64,000 nucleotides of DNA from Enterovibrio calviensis DSM 14347. Lineage in GTDB: Bacteria > Pseudomonadota > Gammaproteobacteria > Enterobacterales > Vibrionaceae. The DNA is taken from assembly GCF_000621165.1 (NCBI RefSeq), contig NZ_JHZA01000007.1, forward strand, positions 1 to 64,000, given 5' to 3'. Under the pieces are notes generated by a model. The model searched no databases and was not told the origin of the DNA. It saw only the letters and a program-made list of their open reading frames with translations. This document shows positions 53,863 to 64,000 of this stretch, piece by piece (position 1 is the first letter of the stretch; each line of letters opens with the position of its first letter). The translations under genes and the position numbers were made by a program.

Positions 53863-54348
53863 TTACTCGTAATCTGTCGCGTAAGTTTCTTTGTAGGTGT
53901 GCGAGTAAAGCTCGAACAAGTTGCCAAACGGGTCTTCCAAATACACCATCTTCGCTTGCTTGCTGTCGTCCTCTGGGTGGTAACGCATGATATCCATACG
54001 CACTTTCCCGCCAAATTCTTCAACTTTTTTGATCACGCCGTGGAAATCGTCTGTTTGTAAACAGAAGTGGAAAATACCCAAGCGTGTGAAATCGACAACA
54101 TGACGCTCTTGGCGCTCTTTCATTTCGAATAGCTCAACGCCAATTCCATCGGTGGTGACAAGGTGCGCGATGTTGAAGCCTTTAAAGCCTTCACCGAACA
54201 CAGCAATACACATTCTGCCGATGGCGGTTTCGCGCTCCTCAGTGACTTTGGTATTTCCCATGACAATGCTAAGGCCCAATGCGTTGGTGTAAAACTCAAC
54301 CGCTTTGTCCATGTCGCCAACCATAATACCTACGTGATTCATTTTCAT
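53863..54348 (-). CDS. VOC (glyoxalase/bleomycin-resistance fold) metalloprotein
   Basis: 161 residues with two beta-alpha-beta-beta-beta modules. The first begins MNHVGIMVGDMDKAVEFYTNALGL and contains GVELFEM. The second contains IFHFCLQTDDFHGVIKKVEEFGGKV and ends DPFGNLFELYSH. Histidines at about residues 5 and 95 and glutamates in VELFE and LFELY are in the four metal-ligand positions. Related enzymes include lactoylglutathione lyase, methylmalonyl-CoA epimerase and dioxygenases, so the reaction is not assignable. It is transcribed in the same direction as the sulfonate genes but separated from them by about 290 bases containing its own candidate regulatory dyad. Confidence 0.82.
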   Translation of the reverse strand: MKMNHVGIMVGDMDKAVEFYTNALGLSIVMGNTKVTEERETAIGRMCIAVFGEGFKGFNIAHLVTTDGIGVELFEMKERQERHVVDFTRLGIFHFCLQTDDFHGVIKKVEEFGGKVRMDIMRYHPEDDSKQAKMVYLEDPFGNLFELYSHTYKETYATDYE

Positions 54349-54642: not shown

Positions 54643-55674
54643 CTAGCCAAACCAATAGATCCCAATCAATACCCAAACTGCAATGGCAACTGTCTCAATC
54701 ACTACCATCAAGATGGGCTCATAGCCGATGGTGAAGAGTTTCTTCACCGAAGTCTTAATCCCTAATGCAGCAACCGCAGCAACCAAACACCATGAAGAGA
54801 GCCCAGATAATGTGCTTGTTACCGTTTCAGGCAAGATGTGAGCACTGTTGATCGCGACACAAATACAAAAGCCAATCACGAAAAATGGTAGCAATGGAAT
54901 GTCTGATTTCCCGCCCGTTTGTTCTGGGTGGCTACGAAAATAGAGTGAGATGATCAAAATGACTGGGACCAAAAGGGCAACACGTAACAGCTTGGTGATG
55001 GTGGCAAATTCACCGGCTTGCGGAGAAATGGAATACCCTGCGCCAACTACTTGCGCGACATCGTGAATGGTTCCGCCGATGAAGATACCGGCAAGACGAT
55101 CATCGAAGCCTAATACGTTGACGAAAATGGGGTAAATCACCATGGCAATGGTACTAAACGCGGTCACTGCGATAACGGTAAATAGGGTGTTTCTTTCGCT
55201 GTATTGGTGCTTGGGAAGAACCGCGGAAATCGCGAGGGCGGCTGATGCACCGCAAATAGCAACTGAACCACCCGTTAACACGCCGAATTGTATGCGTCGC
55301 CCGAGAATTTTGGCAATCAACATACCAATCGAGATAGTTAAAGCGATGCCACACGCGACCCAAACCAGCATTTCCCAGCCTAGTGAAGTCATCTCCTCCA
55401 TGGTGATGCGCAGCCCCAATAAAGCGACGCCAAAGCGGAGGACTTTTTTAGACGCAAACTCAATACCCGGTTGGCATTTTGAATCGTTAGAAAGAAAGTG
55501 AAAAGCGATGCCCAGCAACAGGGCAAACAGCATTTGAGGTGCACCATAGTGCGCAGAGAGAAACGTCGCTGCAGCAGCAACGGTGACAGAAAGCAGTAAG
55601 CCGGGGGCGAGTGAACCCGCGCTCTGACGCAGGGATTGCCAGCTTGGAAGACGTTGTTTGGTGGTCGATGTCAT
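54643..55674 (-). CDS. suyZ: YeiH/UPF0324-family membrane protein, candidate sulfite exporter (SuyZ-like)
   Basis: 343 residues, about ten hydrophobic helices, with the family motifs GIAFHFLSND near the start and GIFIGGTIHDVAQVVGAGYS in the centre (COG2855). Members of this family beside sulfolactate or cysteate lyase genes have been named SuyZ/CuyZ and proposed to export the sulfite released. It is last in a minus-strand series directly after the sulfolactate genes, which strongly suggests that role here. Transport of sulfite has not been shown from sequence, and YeiH homologues elsewhere are often annotated sulfate exporters. Confidence 0.8.
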   Translation of the reverse strand: MTSTTKQRLPSWQSLRQSAGSLAPGLLLSVTVAAAATFLSAHYGAPQMLFALLLGIAFHFLSNDSKCQPGIEFASKKVLRFGVALLGLRITMEEMTSLGWEMLVWVACGIALTISIGMLIAKILGRRIQFGVLTGGSVAICGASAALAISAVLPKHQYSERNTLFTVIAVTAFSTIAMVIYPIFVNVLGFDDRLAGIFIGGTIHDVAQVVGAGYSISPQAGEFATITKLLRVALLVPVILIISLYFRSHPEQTGGKSDIPLLPFFVIGFCICVAINSAHILPETVTSTLSGLSSWCLVAAVAALGIKTSVKKLFTIGYEPILMVVIETVAIAVWVLIGIYWFG

Positions 55675-55708
55675 GAATAACGCTCCATGTTATTAATATT
55701 ATTTGTTT

Positions 55709-56734
55709 TTATTGTGATTTATCGGGGCGAGCCAAATCGTTGAGCTCTTTGAATGCAGCGTCGGTTAGTGTTAATCCTTGCTCAAGCACGCGTTCGCGCT
55801 GACGTAAACGACGCTCTCCTGGCAATCGCACACCTTCTTGTGCACACATCTCGGAAAACAGGGCTTCTAGCCTTTCAGCGAACTGTGGTGCAAGGAATGT
55901 TCCGGAAACACAAGGATCAATGGCAATCACTGAATGCCCTATGGCGGGTGGCCCACCTTCGGTATCGAAAAAATTGGATGCCTCATAACCATATAGTGCA
56001 CCCGTGAGCGTGGCGGAGAGAATTTCCACCATGAGTGTCAAGGCTGCACCTTTAGCATCACCAATAGGAAGCATGGATCCTTGGATTGCTGCATCGGCAT
56101 CTGTGGTCGGGTTACCTTGCGAATCAATGGCCCAACCTTCTGGGATAGGCTCGCCTTTTTTTCTCGCAAGCAGCACTTTCCCTCGCGCCACTTTGCTCAT
56201 GCTCATGTCGATCACAAGTGGAGGATGCCCCTCTCTTGGGCAAGAAAACGCAATAGGGTTAGTCCCAAAAATGGCCGTGTTACCACCCCATGGTGCAATA
56301 GCGCTTGGGCTGTTAGAGAAGATCAGAGCAATGCAGCCTTGTTTGGCAATACGCTCTGCGTGATAACCAGCTTGGCCGAAGTGATGAGAACGATAAACAG
56401 TGGCGAGCGCAATGCCTTGTGCTTTTGCCATTGCGGGTAGCAGGCTGACCAGTTTGTCCATGGCTGGAAAGGCAAAGCCTAACTCTGCGTTAATTCGACA
56501 AACACTGGGTTTTGGGGTTTCAACTTTGGGTACGGCATCTCCAATGACTTTGCCGCAGGTGACCTGATCAATATAGGCAGCAAGGCGCGCCAAGCCGTGA
56601 CCGGGTTGTCCGTCAATTTCCGCTTGAATAAGAGCATTGGCGACTGAGTGTGCATTGGATGATGTGACTCCGACATTTTCCAATGCTTGAACGATGAGCG
56701 CTTTTGCGTCTGATGGGTCGATATACACAGGCAT
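55709..56734 (-). CDS. Malate/L-lactate dehydrogenase-family enzyme, probable sulfolactate dehydrogenase (ComC/SlcD-like)
   Basis: 341 residues of the Ldh_2 (COG2055) family, which uses NAD(P) on 2-hydroxy acids. Visible motifs are ALIQAEIDGQPGHGLARL, the catalytic-region VYRSHHFGQAGYHAERIA, SNSPSAIAPWGG, FGTNPIAFSCP and DMSMSKVARGK. Within this family ComC and SlcD-type enzymes interconvert (R)-sulfolactate and sulfopyruvate. Lying between the SuyB and exporter genes in one direction makes that substrate more likely than malate or lactate. It could serve entry of the other sulfolactate enantiomer or recycle overflow sulfopyruvate. A hairpin (gacgctg/cagcgtc, about 56772-56793) lies between it and suyB. 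Confidence 0.75.
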   Translation of the reverse strand: MPVYIDPSDAKALIVQALENVGVTSSNAHSVANALIQAEIDGQPGHGLARLAAYIDQVTCGKVIGDAVPKVETPKPSVCRINAELGFAFPAMDKLVSLLPAMAKAQGIALATVYRSHHFGQAGYHAERIAKQGCIALIFSNSPSAIAPWGGNTAIFGTNPIAFSCPREGHPPLVIDMSMSKVARGKVLLARKKGEPIPEGWAIDSQGNPTTDADAAIQGSMLPIGDAKGAALTLMVEILSATLTGALYGYEASNFFDTEGGPPAIGHSVIAIDPCVSGTFLAPQFAERLEALFSEMCAQEGVRLPGERRLRQRERVLEQGLTLTDAAFKELNDLARPDKSQ

Positions 56735-56841
56735 GTCCGTCTCCGGTGTAAAAACGGAAGGAAAGAGAAGAGACGCTGAGTTTCCCCAGCGTCATACTCA
56801 CGGTGCAAAGTAGGCCTAAGCTTAAGTTTGAGAGCCAAAGC

Positions 56842-56898
56842 CTTATGCACTGTGGTTAAGCTTACGCACTTCGGTAAAGCTTACGCACTGCGGTAGAG
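56842..56898. repeat. Three 19-bp tandem repeats spanning the 3' end of suyB
   Basis: Units at 56842-56860, 56861-56879 and 56880-56898 follow cttacgcact(g/t)cggtaaag. The unit nearest the gene encodes the last residues (LYRSA) and stop codon of SuyB, and the other two lie just downstream. A local duplication of the gene end is the simplest explanation. Confidence 0.88.
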
Positions 56899-58050
56899 CT
56901 TGGTCAGTACAAACTCGCGGTGACCCAGAGATTCCGCTGCCGTGTAACGGCCGTTTGCTGTGCGAAGTGTCATGTCGATCAGCGCATCACCCGCTGAGTC
57001 CATGTTCAGTTCACGAGCAAGAATGCCAGATACATCAACATCGATGTGCTCGCCCATGGTACGCACGGTACGTGGGTTCGCAGTGATCTTGATAACAGGC
57101 ACAATCGGGTTACCGATAACGTTACCTTGACCCGTAGGGAAGAGGTGAACGGCAAAACCCGCTGCGGCTTGCAAGGTCACACACTCTGCGGCGGCAGAAG
57201 AGGTATCCATGAAGTAAAGACCTGGGCCTGCGGCTGGGCGCTCCGCTGGCGTCAATACATCAACGAACTGGGTGTGCTTACCAATTTTCTGGTAGTTACC
57301 AAACGCTTTCTCTTCGATGGTGGTTAAACCACCTAAGATGTTGCCTTTGGTTGGCTGGCTGTCAGACAAGTCAGAGGTTTTGTGTGGCTCGATAACCTCG
57401 TCCATGTACGCCTGCCACGTGTTCAAGAACTTCTCACCGATTTCAGGTGAAACAGCGCGGGTCGCACAAATCTGCTCTGCACCGGTTAGCTCTGAGGTTT
57501 CACCGAAACACAGAGTTGCACCTTGCGCAGACAGCTTGTCACACAGGTTACCCACGGTTGGGTTAGCCGCTAGACCTGATGTCGTATCAGACTCACCACA
57601 CTTCATGGAAATCCATAGCTCGCTAACATCACACTCTTCACGCGTGATTTCGCTTGCCGCTTGAACATATTCTTTAGCAACACGAGAAGCCGAAGCAATG
57701 GTGTTGATGTCGCCGTTTTGCTCGATAGCAAAACCTTGCACAGGCTTACCAGAAGCGGCAATACCTTCAACCACGCGTGCCGTCCACTCAGGTTCGATAC
57801 CGATAACCACCACAGCGGCGACGTTAGGGTTGCAACCTGTACCAATCAAAGTACGGAAGTGAAGTTCTAAATCTTCACCAAATTGAAGGCGACCGTACGG
57901 GTGTGGAATGGCCATGGTGCCTTTAATGTTGTTGGCTACGGCTTCACAAGCGGCGTTCGACAAGTCATCTAATGGCAGAATGATCACATGGTTACGTACA
58001 CCGACACGGCCATTCTCGCGGCGATAGCCCATAAATTTATAGTTGCTCAT
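56881..58050 (-). CDS. suyB: (2R)-sulfolactate sulfo-lyase subunit beta (SuyB)
   Basis: 389 residues of the UxaA/altronate dehydratase C-terminal family (COG2721), with [34 protein letters not shown] at the start. Conserved cysteines occur in [13 protein letters not shown]-like [22 protein letters not shown] and in GTGCNPN, the likely iron-sulfur ligands. As a free-standing subunit of this length, next to a 97-residue N-terminal-domain protein and surrounded by sulfonate genes, it fits SuyB, which with SuyA cleaves (2R)-3-sulfolactate into pyruvate and sulfite. The alternative, a split altronate/galactarate dehydratase, fits the neighbours much less well. It starts three bases after the suyA stop. 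Confidence 0.83.
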
Positions 58051-58053
58051 GGC

Positions 58054-58347
58054 TTACCACCTCTTCGTTTTAACGTTTTGAACGTGAACATGTCCGCCTT
58101 TGGCGATGTCCGCAATTGCTTTGCCGATGTCGTTGTCGTACTTCAGAATGGTGTCGCCATCCTTGATGTCGTTCAGCGCGACTTTGTGTCCCAGAGGGAT
58201 AGCATCGAGTGCATGTATTTCGATGGTCGCATCCGTGTCCATCACCCATCCAACAAGCGTCTGGCCAGCTTCTAAGCCCTCAACCACAATCACGCCGACT
58301 GAGTCGGTCGAATCGTGGACGAGAAAATCTGGTTTTTGCATTTTCAT
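58054..58347 (-). CDS. suyA: (2R)-sulfolactate sulfo-lyase subunit alpha (SuyA)
   Basis: 97 residues forming a single SAF-type domain, as in the N-terminus of UxaA: IHALDAIPLGHKVALNDIKDGDTILKYDNDIGKAIADIAKGGHVHVQN. Separate small (SuyA) and large (SuyB) subunits are the known arrangement of sulfolactate sulfo-lyase. The start is ATG 58347, or the second ATG two codons on. It lies 35 bases from the zinc dehydrogenase gene on the upstream side and is tightly coupled to suyB. Confidence 0.83.
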   Translation of the reverse strand: MKMQKPDFLVHDSTDSVGVIVVEGLEAGQTLVGWVMDTDATIEIHALDAIPLGHKVALNDIKDGDTILKYDNDIGKAIADIAKGGHVHVQNVKTKRW

Positions 58348-58382
58348 CTCCTTTTGAATAAAACGATCTTTCTTTTCTTGGG

Positions 58383-59405
58383 TTACTTTTCGGGCCGCAG
58401 CACGACTTTGGCTGCGGCTATACGTCCGTTAAGTAAGTCGTCAAAAGCGTCCGCACCTTCACTGAGCGGGCGTTCTTGAATCCAGTCCAGCGCGCCTAAC
58501 GCGCCGTTATGCATGGCTTCCACCGTCGCGTGGAAATCTTGCATGGTGTAGGTGTAGCTGCCGGTGAAGATCACTTCTTGCAACGTAAATTTGCGTACAT
58601 CGAGACCTTCAATGCTGTCTTGCAAACCCACATGGACAATCACGCCGCCAGGTTTAACGGCGTCGGATGAACCCATGCGGGTGTGTTTGTTGCCTACACA
58701 ATCCACCACCAAATCGATACTGTTACTGGCAACGAGTGGGTTAGAAAGTGGGTCGAATACCGTGCAAACGCTGGTGGTCTTCACCGTTTCACGGCGCAAT
58801 TCATTGGTTTCGGCAAGGAAGATTTGACGACAACCTTGCGCATACAAAGAGAGCGCAGCCGCGAGGCCGACCGCGCCGCCGCCATACACCAAAGCTTTAC
58901 TTTCCACCAACGGACGGTTAATCAAGTTCGCGCCTTTGGTAACGGCATGCCAGCCCGTTGCAATCGGTTCGGCCAATGATGCTGTGGCCATCGACATGCC
59001 TTCAGGAACTGGCACCAAGTTGCGTATTGGAATCGCCACGTATTCGGCAAATGCGCCTTGTCGTGGTGGCATGGAAATGATTTCTCGGCTTGCACATTGG
59101 TTTTCGAAACCCGTGCGGCAATAGCTGCAATGACCACAGCTCACCAGCGGGTTGATCACCACGGCTTGACCGTCAAGGTCGCGATTGCCTGTGTTGTCCG
59201 CACCGCGAACAACGCCTGCGCCTTCATGCCCCAAAATCAGAGGGGCAGGGCGACGCGAGTCATGACCGAGGTAAGCATGAAGATCTGACCCACAAATGCC
59301 GACGGCGTTGATTTGCACCAAGACTTCGTCATCACGAAGGGTTGGCATCTCTGCGTCATCGACATAGGTCAGTGATTTTTCTCCGGTATATACCAGTGCT
59401 TTCAT
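58383..59405 (-). CDS. Zinc-dependent medium-chain alcohol dehydrogenase, probable DHPS dehydrogenase (HpsO/HpsP-like)
   Basis: 340 residues from ATG 59405 (AAGGAAGG upstream). The longer frame to 59510 would overlap the preceding gene and has no site. MDR features are clear: catalytic-zinc GICGSDLHAYLGHDSRRPAPLILGHEGAGVV, structural-zinc cysteines in VSCGHCSYCRTGFENQCASREI, and nucleotide-binding YGGGAVGLAAAL. In the DHPS pathway two NAD-linked dehydrogenases, HpsO and HpsP, interconvert DHPS enantiomers through the 2-keto compound, and this gene and the adjacent SDR gene occupy that place. Which name applies to which gene I cannot decide from sequence. Confidence 0.8.
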   Translation of the reverse strand: MKALVYTGEKSLTYVDDAEMPTLRDDEVLVQINAVGICGSDLHAYLGHDSRRPAPLILGHEGAGVVRGADNTGNRDLDGQAVVINPLVSCGHCSYCRTGFENQCASREIISMPPRQGAFAEYVAIPIRNLVPVPEGMSMATASLAEPIATGWHAVTKGANLINRPLVESKALVYGGGAVGLAAALSLYAQGCRQIFLAETNELRRETVKTTSVCTVFDPLSNPLVASNSIDLVVDCVGNKHTRMGSSDAVKPGGVIVHVGLQDSIEGLDVRKFTLQEVIFTGSYTYTMQDFHATVEAMHNGALGALDWIQERPLSEGADAFDDLLNGRIAAAKVVLRPEK

Positions 59406-59484
59406 CGTGCCTTCCTTTTGGTCTTCTGTTTTTTGCTTCTGTCTACCGCTTCTGTCGTATCGATTTGGCGCATGTTGAGAGTGG

Positions 59485-60261
59485 CTATTTGGCGGTATAG
59501 CCACCATCAAGAGAGATCATCTGGCCGGTGATGTAATCGGAGGCGCGTGACGCCAAAAACACCGTGAGACCGTCAAAATCTTCCAGTTCGCCGTTTCGTC
59601 CAATCGCCGTCATGCTGGCGTGATGTTTCGACAATTCATCGTCCGCAAACACACGTTGAGTCAGGGGCGTTTGGAAAAAACCCGGCGCAATGGCGTTAGT
59701 GGTGACACCTTGGCGAGACCACGCTTCTGCCATTGCTCTGGTTAACTGCGCCACGCCGCCTTTCGATGCGCCATAAGGGATCGAATTGGCAAACGCACGA
59801 TAGGATTGCAATGAACCGATGTTGATGATTTTTCCGCGTCCTTTTTCGAGCATGCCGGGTAAACAAGCCTGAGCGAGAAAAAAAGGCACCGAGAGATTGA
59901 GATGAAGGGTCTTGTCCCAACTCTCGATGGAAATGTCATCCGCAGGTTCACGCAAATTCACACCCGCCGCGTTGACTAAGATGTCAGGTGCGCCGAAATG
60001 CGAAGAGGCTTTGATGATGAAATCTTGCAACTTCTCGCGTCGCGTTAAATCCGCAACCACCACCGCTGAATCCCCACCAGAACCTGCGATCAATGCCGCG
60101 GTCTGTGACAAGGTTTCTACGTGGCGTCCAGCCAGCAAAACCTTGGCGCCTGCTTGGGAAAGGGCAAACGCCATGCGCTGTCCAATACCCGAGCCAGCAC
60201 CCGTCACCAAAGCGACGTGTCCGGTTAGGTCAAAGAGGTGGTTTAACGCGTTGCCTGTCAT
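59485..60261 (-). CDS. Short-chain dehydrogenase/reductase, probable DHPS dehydrogenase (HpsO/HpsP-like)
   Basis: 258 residues from ATG 60261 (AAGGAAG upstream). The frame extends further, but without a site. Classical SDR features: TGxxxGxG as VTGAGSGIGQRMA near residue 19, NAAG, catalytic serine in NIGSLQSYRAF, and YxxxK as YGASKGG. The C-terminal SDYITGQMISLDGGY is standard. It is NAD(P)-linked. In context it probably oxidises the C2 hydroxyl of one DHPS enantiomer, with the zinc dehydrogenase handling the other. It lies 79 bases before the zinc dehydrogenase gene. Confidence 0.82.
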   Translation of the reverse strand: MTGNALNHLFDLTGHVALVTGAGSGIGQRMAFALSQAGAKVLLAGRHVETLSQTAALIAGSGGDSAVVVADLTRREKLQDFIIKASSHFGAPDILVNAAGVNLREPADDISIESWDKTLHLNLSVPFFLAQACLPGMLEKGRGKIINIGSLQSYRAFANSIPYGASKGGVAQLTRAMAEAWSRQGVTTNAIAPGFFQTPLTQRVFADDELSKHHASMTAIGRNGELEDFDGLTVFLASRASDYITGQMISLDGGYTAK

Positions 60262-60368
60262 TTCATCTTCCTTTTTGTATGACGTTGTTTGTGTAAACAG
60301 CATCTGTAAACAGCTTGGATAAATAGCTTCGGTAAGTAGCTGGATCAATAGCCCAGCTAAATAGCGAC

Positions 60369-61724
<1,356 letters not shown>

Positions 61725-61793
61725 TTAGGAGAAAGCCGAATAGGCATTGGGTTGTAGAGTTAAACCAGTGTTAAGAGCTTTTCCGTGGCGTCG

Positions 61794-63104
61794 TTAATCC
61801 AGCGCCCAGAGTGATAGTTCAGGAATAAATGCCAACATGAGTACAACGGTCAGCATGGATATTACATATGGTCCGGATCGAGCCGCGATCTTCAGCACCG
61901 AGGTTCCCGTTAATCCGGATACCACAAAGAGGTTCAAACCAAGTGGTGGTGTAATGAAACCCACACCGAGAGACGTCACCATCATGATACAGAACTGCAC
62001 ATCTTCCATGCCTATCTCACGTGCCAGCGGCAACAGGATAGGGGAGAGGATCAGAATGTTCGGCGTCGTTTCCATAAAACAACCAGCCAGAATCAAGATG
62101 CCGATCATGATGAGTGTCAGGGCAACGTGACTGTCGGTAATCGACGTCATGCTTTGAACAAACGCCTGCGGCACGTCTAGGGCTGCCAGTGTTTGTGCCA
62201 ATGGAAGGCTTAGCGCGATGATAGGCAAGATAACGCCATTCACTTTTGCTGAGCTTTCTAACATCTTCGGAAAATCACTCACCTTCAATGTGCCTTGGAA
62301 CAGACCAATGATGATGGTGGTAACAACAGCGATAGCAGCGGCTTCTGTTGGTGTGAAGATACCTGAGTAGATACCACCCAAGATGACGAACGGCACCATC
62401 AGGGCGTAGCGCGCATCAATCACCACGGCTATCCAGCGCTTGAATGAGAAGCCTTGTCCTGCGTTTTCGTAGCCATGAATGCGGTTCATCACTACGTTGG
62501 TCAGCATGATGGCGCCCATCACCATTAACCCGGGGACTGCGGCTGCAAGGAACAGTGTCGATGCGGATATACCCAGCACTAAGCCAATAATGATGTAAGC
62601 GATAGAGGGTGGGATCAGGATGCCTGTACATGCCCCCGCGGCGACCAACGCACACGCATAAGGTTTCGGGTAACCCTGTTTCACCAGTCTATCAATGGTC
62701 ATACGACCCACAGCAGCAGCACCTGCAGCATCAGAACCTGAGATACAAGCAAAAAAACCACAACCGAGTACCGTTGCGCTACCAAAGCCTGCTCGCGCAC
62801 CGCCGACACTGGCTTCTGCAACATCGAGGAGTTTGTTTGATAGGCCAGTACGAACCAGTACGTCCCCTGTCAGGATGAAAAGTGGAACGGCAATCAGCGC
62901 GAACGCATCGATGCCATCAAAGAGAGATTCACCAAACAAGGATAAAGGTAGAACGTCAGTAATGAAGAGCAGCGCAATAGAGCCTAAGCCAAGTGATACC
63001 CACACAGGGACGGCAAGGCCAATCAACACTAGCATGCCAATCACAGGGCCATAAAATTCCCAGCCGAGGTCGACAACCACGTCTGTTTGATAGTAATTCA
63101 GCAT
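61794..63104 (-). CDS. TRAP transporter large permease subunit (DctM family)
   Basis: 436 residues, about twelve hydrophobic segments, with family motifs such as VPLFILTGDVLVRTGLSNKL, CGFFACISGSDAAGAAAVG, KPYACALVAAGACTGILIPPSIAYI and GIYSGIFTPTEAAAIAVV. It forms the Na+-coupled channel of a tripartite periplasmic transporter. The substrate is inferred to be DHPS (HpsKLM-type system) from the downstream catabolic genes. It follows the DctQ gene by nine bases. A short hairpin (cggcttt/aaagccg, 61717-61738) lies between it and hpsN. Confidence 0.9.
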   Translation of the reverse strand: MLNYYQTDVVVDLGWEFYGPVIGMLVLIGLAVPVWVSLGLGSIALLFITDVLPLSLFGESLFDGIDAFALIAVPLFILTGDVLVRTGLSNKLLDVAEASVGGARAGFGSATVLGCGFFACISGSDAAGAAAVGRMTIDRLVKQGYPKPYACALVAAGACTGILIPPSIAYIIIGLVLGISASTLFLAAAVPGLMVMGAIMLTNVVMNRIHGYENAGQGFSFKRWIAVVIDARYALMVPFVILGGIYSGIFTPTEAAAIAVVTTIIIGLFQGTLKVSDFPKMLESSAKVNGVILPIIALSLPLAQTLAALDVPQAFVQSMTSITDSHVALTLIMIGILILAGCFMETTPNILILSPILLPLAREIGMEDVQFCIMMVTSLGVGFITPPLGLNLFVVSGLTGTSVLKIAARSGPYVISMLTVVLMLAFIPELSLWALD

Positions 63105-63113
63105 GACATTCTC

Positions 63114-63629
63114 CTAATCGAACAGCTTGTTGCCTTCGAACACGGGGGTGCCGTGTATCAGGCTATGTGTATCGCGACGGATCGATTGAGCCAGTCGGAA
63201 CAACATCAAGGAGAACCCTAGCGGTACTGCCGCCATGAACCACGCTTGGCTGATGCCTAAACCGTGGGTGACTGAGCCGAATTTTAACGATACTTCAATC
63301 GGGTGAATGGACCAGTAGAGTGCAAATACAGCGACGATAAGTGTCATCAAATCGCCAAAAAGATACATGACGGCTTTACCGCGTTGAGGTAAATAGTGGA
63401 GCAACACGTCAATACGTATATGGGCGCGTTCTTTTACAGCCGCTGACGCACCGATCCAAGCGAGATAAATAAACGCATAACGGGCGACTTCTTCTCCCCA
63501 AATGGAGGAGTAGCTGAATACAAAACGGCGGAGCACTTCCATTGCAATGGTAATAACGATTGTGGTGTAGAAGAAAAGGAGCAACCAGCGTTCGCCATTC
63601 TCATCAATGTTCTTAAGTAGAGATTTCAT
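63114..63629 (-). CDS. TRAP transporter small permease subunit (DctQ family)
   Basis: 171 residues with four transmembrane helices in the DctQ pattern (LLLFFYTTIVITIAMEVLRRF, WGEEVARYAFIYLAWIGASAAVKERAHIRIDVL). It is the small membrane partner of the adjacent DctM protein. It lies nine bases upstream of the dctM gene and 79 bases downstream of the binding-protein gene, with a stable hairpin in that gap. Confidence 0.9.
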   Translation of the reverse strand: MKSLLKNIDENGERWLLLFFYTTIVITIAMEVLRRFVFSYSSIWGEEVARYAFIYLAWIGASAAVKERAHIRIDVLLHYLPQRGKAVMYLFGDLMTLIVAVFALYWSIHPIEVSLKFGSVTHGLGISQAWFMAAVPLGFSLMLFRLAQSIRRDTHSLIHGTPVFEGNKLFD

Positions 63630-63666
63630 AGGCCATGTCCAACGTGCGTTGTGGAAATCGAGAGAG

Positions 63667-63695
63667 TAGCCTCTTGGAAGAGTCCCAAGAGGCTA
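63667..63695. promoter_or_regulatory. Intercistronic hairpin between the TRAP binding-protein and DctQ genes
   Basis: tagcctcttgg (63667-63677) pairs perfectly with ccaagaggcta (63685-63695) over a seven-base loop, without a T tract on the minus strand. Such hairpins after binding-protein genes often stabilise the upstream message so that the binding protein is made in excess. Confidence 0.65.
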
Positions 63696-63708
63696 GGTGA
63701 CTCAGACG

Positions 63709-64000
63709 TTACACATCGTGAACATAGAAACGGCTATTACCATTGGCGGCATCTAGCAGTTTGTTAAAGGTGGCTTTTGACCCTGCAAGTTGCAGTTTAA
63801 AGTCATCCCACTCTGGACGCTGGTGGCCCGCTTTGTCAATCCATTGGCGCATTTCATCAGCATTAGGCGCATAGAATTCAACACCTGCATCGCCCAGTTC
63901 AGCCATCGCATAAGCGCGAGCTGCAGGTACTTTTGCAAGGTTCTGAATTGAGGTCACTTCACTCGCGAACTCAATGCCTTCCTGAATGTCTTTCGGCAGG
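63709..64000 (-). CDS. TRAP transporter solute-binding protein (DctP family), C-terminal part
   Basis: Only the last 96 residues are in the window. The frame is open through base 64000 and begins LPKDIQEGIEFASEVTS, a segment typical of DctP C-termini, so the gene continues to the right. It delivers the substrate, probably DHPS or a related organosulfonate, to the DctQM permease. The ligand arginine and fold core lie outside the window. It appears to be the first visible gene of the sulfonate operon, whose promoter and any regulator are beyond the edge. Confidence 0.85.
   Translation of the reverse strand, partial: LPKDIQEGIEFASEVTSIQNLAKVPAARAYAMAELGDAGVEFYAPNADEMRQWIDKAGHQRPEWDDFKLQLAGSKATFNKLLDAANGNSRFYVHDV

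Follow-up and report, generated by a model that had tools for sequence, protein, structure and literature searches.

A probable 2,3-dihydroxypropane-1-sulfonate utilization operon and its predicted regulation in Enterovibrio calviensis

Which compound is consumed by the products of a ten-gene operon whose default annotations, HisD, UxaA and Ldh_2, point to sugar acids or to compounds resembling histidinol? The operon is found at the end of a 64,000-nucleotide stretch of Enterovibrio calviensis DSM 14347 (Vibrionaceae), referred to below as the window, which corresponds to positions 1-64000 of contig C4 in a 5.5 Mb genome of 28 contigs (G000). The genes occupy the minus strand from 54643 to contig position 64863 in the order hpsKLM-hpsNOP-suyAB-comC-suyZ; all ten are present and co-directional, as the original prediction had described from the DNA letters, and the reading-frame list contains no internal stops. 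The operon, which is probably inducible, very probably serves growth on 2,3-dihydroxypropane-1-sulfonate (DHPS), a sulfur compound of algae, and the earlier claim that a member of the Vibrionaceae carries a complete route from DHPS through sulfolactate to pyruvate and sulfite is supported by an HpsN-type HisD paralogue, a separate hisD gene and the clade placement of SuyB.

DHPS catabolism by HpsNOP and SuyAB is established, and the co-occurrence of SuyAB with CuyA has already been published, both in the available part of PMC11382572; two Vibrio isolates are described as converting sulfoquinovose to DHPS (PMC13372026, in excerpt). The gene set is of an already known type, the new elements being a shared palindrome, a likely link to sulfite oxidation and a second related gene set that may serve another algal sulfonate. 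A genus of Vibrionaceae also looks able to consume DHPS; among the literature matches listed for DHPS together with Vibrio, Vibrionaceae, Grimontia or Enterovibrio, no title concerned the operon in this genus, although supplementary tables may hold it.

In the proposed mechanism, HpsK would capture DHPS and HpsLM would import it, after which HpsN would oxidize (R)-DHPS to (R)-sulfolactate in two NAD-dependent steps. The part of HpsO and HpsP would be either to channel the second enantiomer into the route or to produce sulfolactaldehyde, a point on which the papers differ. SuyAB would cleave (R)-sulfolactate to pyruvate and sulfite, and SuyZ would export sulfite (or sulfate) from the cytoplasm. 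In the periplasm, a SorAB-like dehydrogenase with genes at another site of the genome would probably oxidize the sulfite in this sub-clade. ComC would provide an optional connection between sulfolactate and sulfopyruvate, and a divergent LacI-type regulator, HpsR, is predicted to control both the operon and sorAB through the palindrome ATGTAAGCGCTTACAT. In this scheme the gene identities, the conserved residues and layout and the location of the palindrome are read from the sequence, whereas the substrate, the flux direction, the regulation and the fate of sulfite are inferred.

Identity of the operon genes

The domains assigned by Pfam were Cons_hypoth698 (YeiH/SuyZ), Ldh_2, GD_AH_second and GD_AH_C (SuyB), zinc ADH, SDR, Histidinol_dh, DctM and DctQ; names from Pfam and NCBIfam were mostly general, whereas solved structures were more specific. 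The TRAP solute-binding protein gene hpsK (63709-64000) is cut by the window edge but intact in the contig (63709-64863, with its start at 64863; locus L002). The best match of HpsK in the Protein Data Bank (PDB) is 24gc, a 'DHPS TRAP transporter' (E 1.4e-163), the next match being at 1e-19, and the protein appears to be a solute receptor of the DHPS-binding type. It is accompanied by the small permease gene hpsL (63114-63629; PF04290, 107 bits) and the large permease gene hpsM (61794-63104; PF06808, 316 bits), whose products are 63% and 67% identical, respectively, to those of the plasmid locus L022.

The hpsN gene (60369-61673) is predicted to encode an (R)-DHPS 3-dehydrogenase of the HisD superfamily, and the closest PDB structure to its product is 8v35, a sulfopropanediol 3-dehydrogenase (E 1e-175). 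In published HpsN, as far as the available text of PMC11382572 goes, His126 is the sulfonate-binding residue that distinguishes HpsN from HisD, Glu318, His319 and Asp352 are catalytic, and Gln248, His251 and His411 are zinc ligands; L-cysteate was bound by CpHpsN much like (R)-sulfolactate, and l-histidinol was no substrate. Residues H127, Q249, H252, E319, H320, D353, K354 and H412 are conserved in the Enterovibrio protein. H127, the equivalent of His126, is present here and lacking in the true HisD of the same genome, and E319, H320, D353, Q249, H252 and H412 are invariant in the HpsN alignment (A1), most of them being also common to HisD. The genome contains three HisD-family genes, namely the operon hpsN, a paralogue on contig C1 (56% identical) and the true hisD on contig C2 (C2:429179; 36% identical). 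Assignment of the HisD paralogue to the HpsN type, proposed from the original reading, is therefore sustained by its match to 8v35, the diagnostic histidine and the separate hisD gene. The HpsN tree (48 rows from a chosen locus list, most Pelagibacteraceae loci being omitted) came from a quick search and had a very long HisD branch, so that the decision between HpsN and HisD was taken from residues and scores. Another HisD paralogue, with 49-50% identity to HpsN, is present in 8 of 18 genomes of the genus (e.g. G016:C2:1667656-1668927) and absent from the genome studied here.

For the SDR-type DHPS dehydrogenase HpsO (59485-60261), two PDB matches were nearly tied: 6le3, named gluconate 5-dehydrogenase, came first (E 3e-84) and 8wwf, an HpsO, second (E 2e-83). 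The Ser-Tyr-Lys triad and the chirality-sensing Gln are conserved, with S150, Y163, K167 and Q152 corresponding to S145, Y158, K162 and Q147 of 8wwf. The zinc-dependent DHPS dehydrogenase HpsP (58383-59408) has its best match in 8wwd, named zinc-containing alcohol dehydrogenase (E 3e-104), which was taken for DsHpsP; H61, E62 and E147 align with the DsHpsP residues H59, E60 and E139 named in the available part of PMC11131964, which were placed in 8wwd at a ten-residue offset. As far as they were checked, the residues named as catalytic or substrate-binding in the accessible text of PMC11382572 and PMC11131964 are conserved in HpsN, HpsO and HpsP.

The sulfolactate sulfo-lyase is encoded by suyA (58054-58347; small subunit, 97 aa), which ends 3 bp before suyB (56881-58050; large subunit). 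SuyA had no Pfam match and only a weak one, far below cut-off, to the N-terminal region of the galactarate dehydratase model TIGR03248; compared with suyA-like genes from beyond the genus, it is 47-57% identical. With the homologue encoded in the hpsN cluster of Cupriavidus pinatubonensis HN-2, SuyB shares 68.5% identity; of the 316 records from the plasmid collection, 13 were at 60-80% and the other 303 below 60%, the identity falling from 60.5% to 40.2% among the 40 matches listed. In the SuyB tree (33 rows), a branch with 100/100 support, subject to a warning about long outgroup branches, divides 26 SuyB-like rows, the Enterovibrio SuyB among them, from 7 rows of other UxaA-family proteins. 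A PF04295 search of the genome found no UxaA-family gene besides suyB, and both results agree with the earlier assignment as against UxaA and GarD. The last gene, suyZ (54643-55674), encodes a probable sulfite/sulfate exporter of the YeiH family; the protein exceeds the PF03601 cut-off (235 bits), is 47% identical to its counterpart in L022, and the gene has the same position in the suy cluster as in L019, L020 and L022.

An alternative substrate for the operon, for instance a sugar acid or a compound resembling histidinol, is extremely improbable. The default annotations point that way, general models name histidinol dehydrogenase (above cut-off) as well as galactarate dehydratase and other Ldh_2 enzymes (below cut-off), and the first structure matched by the SDR protein carries a gluconate 5-dehydrogenase name; however, the diagnostic histidine is present in HpsN and lacking in the genome's own HisD, HpsK matches the DHPS TRAP protein far ahead of anything else, and SuyB is placed in its own clade.

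A putative HpsR palindrome and probable sulfite oxidation

The DHPS operon is probably regulated by HpsR, encoded by a LacI-family gene divergent from it (contig 65375-66430, beyond the window), beside which the operator-like palindrome ATGTAAGCGCTTACAT is located at contig positions 65236-65251. The genome contains one perfect copy, which is the one at the operon, one site with a single mismatch and two sites with two mismatches; the latter (C1:738258 and C1:994847) were not counted as regulon members, one being inside a reading frame and the other between an apparent LacI-family gene and a transporter. Among 23 chosen intergenic stretches, each leading from a LacI-type gene to the first catabolic gene (6 from the genus and 17 from others), the exact palindrome was identified in five of the six genus stretches, the sixth having one mismatch, and in 5 of the 17 others, including other classes; variants with one to four mismatches were present in seven more of the 17. 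Sites with at most one mismatch occur in 14 of 18 genus genomes, which are exactly the 14 with hpsN, and the reversed-pattern control gave none in all 18. The shared palindrome offers a handle for locating DHPS regulons in other bacteria.

The single-mismatch copy ends 51 bp before a gene for a SorA-like sulfite dehydrogenase (G000:C1:108684-110756), and such a second site was identified in five genus genomes (G000, G005, G010, G012 and G014), ending 47-52 bp before the SorA-like start codon. The best PDB match of the SorA-like protein is 2blf, subunit A of sulfite:cytochrome c oxidoreductase (E 1.6e-52), its N-terminus presumably being twin-arginine-like, and the product of the following gene (244 aa) resembles a c-type cytochrome and matches SorB weakly. 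The pair may be called SorAB-like, and ATGTAAGCGCTTACAT is probably the site through which HpsR acts on sorAB as well as on the operon. The original prediction had sulfite exported; in this sub-clade it would probably be oxidized in the periplasm and not only released.

Several observations weigh against the DHPS operon reading or parts of it. The general hisD model TIGR00069 also exceeds its cut-off on HpsN (452.7 versus 243.8 bits), so that identification as HpsN depends on residues and on closer relatives, and SuyZ is below the cut-off of TIGR00698, 'putative sulfate export transporter' (153.6 versus 232.6 bits). The best NCBIfam model of ComC, L-sulfolactate dehydrogenase NF040650, scored 221.7 bits, far below the cut-off of 500. 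Should HpsP produce the precursor of (S)-sulfolactate, the use of the latter would be unaccounted for in the absence of an SlcC enzyme, no search having been aimed at a sulfolactaldehyde dehydrogenase. As for regulation, at up to two mismatches the genome contains four palindrome sites versus one for the reversed-pattern control, and the palindrome is absent from 5 of the 23 chosen stretches, three of these five having their LacI relative at a distance of 1.3-3.9 kb. The SorA and SorB scores (259 versus 600 bits with the best model, and 36 versus 93 bits with the second model, respectively) are both below the equivalog cut-offs. In addition, only five of the 12 genomes with sorA have the palindrome in front of it, the best sites within 400 bp in the other seven having 4-7 mismatches; HpsR control of sorAB, if real, would therefore be a sub-clade trait.

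Gene order and taxonomic distribution

The arrangement of the DHPS operon had been suggested to be a lineage-specific layout, a view that comparison with other loci does not support. Within the genus, the full ten-gene order was identified in L024, L025, L029, L136, Grimontia celer (L034) and Grimontia indica (L035); outside it, the full order recurs in the Rhodobacteraceae plasmid locus L022, alone among the 96 loci compared (L018-L113), and two alphaproteobacterial loci (L066 and L111) have the same order as far as comC. The layout combines known blocks that are common to different classes, and chance is far from sufficient to account for the gene set. The relatives considered in the scan of assembled-genome contigs were the best 80 of 554.

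The hps cluster of Ruegeria pomeroyi DSS-3 (SPO0590-0598) has, in the part of PMC4334477 available, a LacI-type regulator, TRAP K-L-M and then N-O-P in the same order, but hpsNOP is followed there by hpsQ and slcD, in contrast to suyA-suyB-comC-suyZ here. On the plasmid of Cupriavidus pinatubonensis HN-2 (L018), a LacI gene, hpsN, hpsO, a zinc dehydrogenase gene and suyAB likewise form one cluster; however, an MFS transporter gene lies between hpsO and the zinc dehydrogenase gene, a transhydrogenase follows, and no TRAP, comC or suyZ gene was found in the stretch. Plasmid pSC52_2 of Rhodobacteraceae bacterium SC52 (L022) shares the ten genes in order, the divergent LacI-type gene and the identical exact palindrome, although the ten proteins are only 47-71% identical, the regulator 39%, and the plasmid was typed as mobilizable. 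Paracoccus aestuarii (L020) and Methylobacterium oryzae (L021) also possess SuyAB, ComC-like and sulfate-exporter genes, but in the stretches seen they lack hpsNOP.

HpsN at 90% identity or more was identified in 14 of the 18 genus genomes and SuyB at 92% or more in the same 14, both being in two pieces in G006; in all 14, suyB is within about 6 kb of hpsN on one contig. At the family level, 22 of 329 genomes have an HpsN-type gene at E of at most 1e-140, with HpsN proper and the paralogue pooled and up to five candidates scored per genome; these are the 14 genus genomes and eight others, five with a 71% match and three with a 53-54% match only. G031, in which HpsN is split over two frames, was below the threshold. 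The G+C content of the operon (54643-63629) is 50.9%, versus 47.4% for the remaining window, and the operon was likely acquired by horizontal transfer.

Scans for promoters and terminators gave 6 promoter-like matches versus 9.7 expected and 16 terminator-like matches versus 12.0 (sd 3.9), with no clear excess of either. A hairpin of nine pairs with a T-rich tail is located between suyB and comC (56772-56793, minus strand); it might separate off the accessory comC-suyZ part, although such matches are not clearly above those in shuffled sequences. A glyoxalase-family gene on the same strand (53863-54348; best NCBIfam model glyox_marine, below cut-off) lies downstream of suyZ, as does one in G012.

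ComC and related sulfonate gene sets

The Ldh_2 dehydrogenase encoded between suyB and suyZ (55709-56734) had been described as ComC/SlcD-like, of which only the first part can be retained, since SlcD is described as a membrane-bound enzyme in the accessible text of PMC4334477. The protein appears to be ComC-like, a probable sulfolactate dehydrogenase, and was not assigned as a member of the NF040650 family, a model that may represent an archaeal enzyme. ComC is 47-51% identical to the Ldh proteins of L020, L021 and L073, each of which adjoins a hydroxyacid dehydrogenase that was taken for SlcC by its position. When the L020 hydroxyacid dehydrogenase was searched against the Enterovibrio genome, six matches were obtained, the best with 38% identity over query residues 36-302 and none close, which speaks against an SlcC elsewhere in the genome; as ComC is also below its family cut-off, an SlcC/ComC two-enzyme racemase is unlikely here. 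The step between sulfopyruvate and sulfolactate may be catalyzed by ComC, in one direction or the other. Full-length comC (at least 73% identity) is present in 10 of the 14 genus genomes with hpsN and suyB, as a fragment in G001, and was not found in G006, G007 and G014; because of this patchy presence, ComC is regarded as accessory and not essential to the pathway. In the ComC tree, for which rows in the 30-36% identity range were kept to six at most, support was confined to a few branches and little could be concluded.

Two further gene sets bear on the role of ComC. The first (C1:932153-939918) has the order cuyA, the HpsN paralogue (HpsN2), a DegT aminotransferase gene, TRAP P/Q/M and cuyB, with CuyA at 558 bits versus a cut-off of 450; the same order is present in G014, G009 and G060 and, with an extra exporter gene, on a Pseudomonas plasmid, and in the stretches read from G011 and G016 cuyA occurs without the rest of the module. 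A strict dependence of comC on the cuyA module, or the reverse, was rejected, as G017 has comC without cuyA and G014 cuyA without comC, while nine genomes have both. The second set (C1:827828-838828) consists of a GMC oxidoreductase gene, TRAP P/Q/M, an IclR-type gene, CobT- and CobS-like genes and the Xsc gene (C1:837059), the product of which scored 1063 bits versus a cut-off of 676; we take this neighborhood to be probably an isethionate module, with the cobaltochelatase-like genes in between. With SuyAB, CuyA and Xsc in one genome, the bacterium would be a sulfonate generalist.

With CuyA and Xsc both encoded, each above its model cut-off, ComC could be the main exit of the pathway in place of SuyAB, converting sulfolactate to sulfopyruvate for CuyA after transamination or for Xsc after decarboxylation. 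This route is very unlikely, as suyB accompanies hpsN in every one of the 14 hpsN-bearing genomes and full-length comC in only 10, comC and cuyA can each occur without the other, and the Xsc setting resembles an isethionate module. In addition to the SuyAB pathway, ComC might act in reverse, supplying SuyAB with (R)-sulfolactate from cysteate-derived sulfopyruvate so that the operon also serves cysteate, a use that we consider rather doubtful. It would fit the lack of a close SlcC relative, which makes the racemase unlikely, and a cysteate route through sulfolactate is reportedly used by Paracoccus pantotrophus (Rein et al. 2005), but the dedicated CuyA/CuyB module for cysteate would make such a use redundant.

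HpsN2 (G000:C1:933262) is 55-56% identical to the operon HpsN, retains the sulfonate-binding His and Lys, and falls in a long-branched, supported group of three rows in the HpsN tree. At 1e-150 it was identified in 4 of 369 genomes of Gammaproteobacteria, these being the genome itself, one with a 70% match containing an internal stop (G615) and two with 57% matches that may be HpsN proper; a viral contig scan with HpsN2 found no relative. HisD-type enzymes convert amino alcohols to amino acids, and the sulfo-lyase and racemase of the module act on cysteate. HpsN2 may therefore be a cysteinolate dehydrogenase, converting cysteinolic acid, an algal osmolyte, to cysteate for cleavage by CuyA; taken together with the capture of sorAB by HpsR in one sub-clade of the genus, this is a tentative proposal that is plausible without being favored, and HpsN2 may alternatively be a plain DHPS dehydrogenase. 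If the proposal is true, the HpsN fold would accept both a diol and an amino alcohol as sulfonate substrates. Among the literature matches listed for cysteinolic acid catabolism, no title named a dedicated enzyme. Cysteinolic acid is abundant in microalgae, as stated in the available part of PMC8703288, and the CuyA module provides a testable candidate for its catabolic enzyme.

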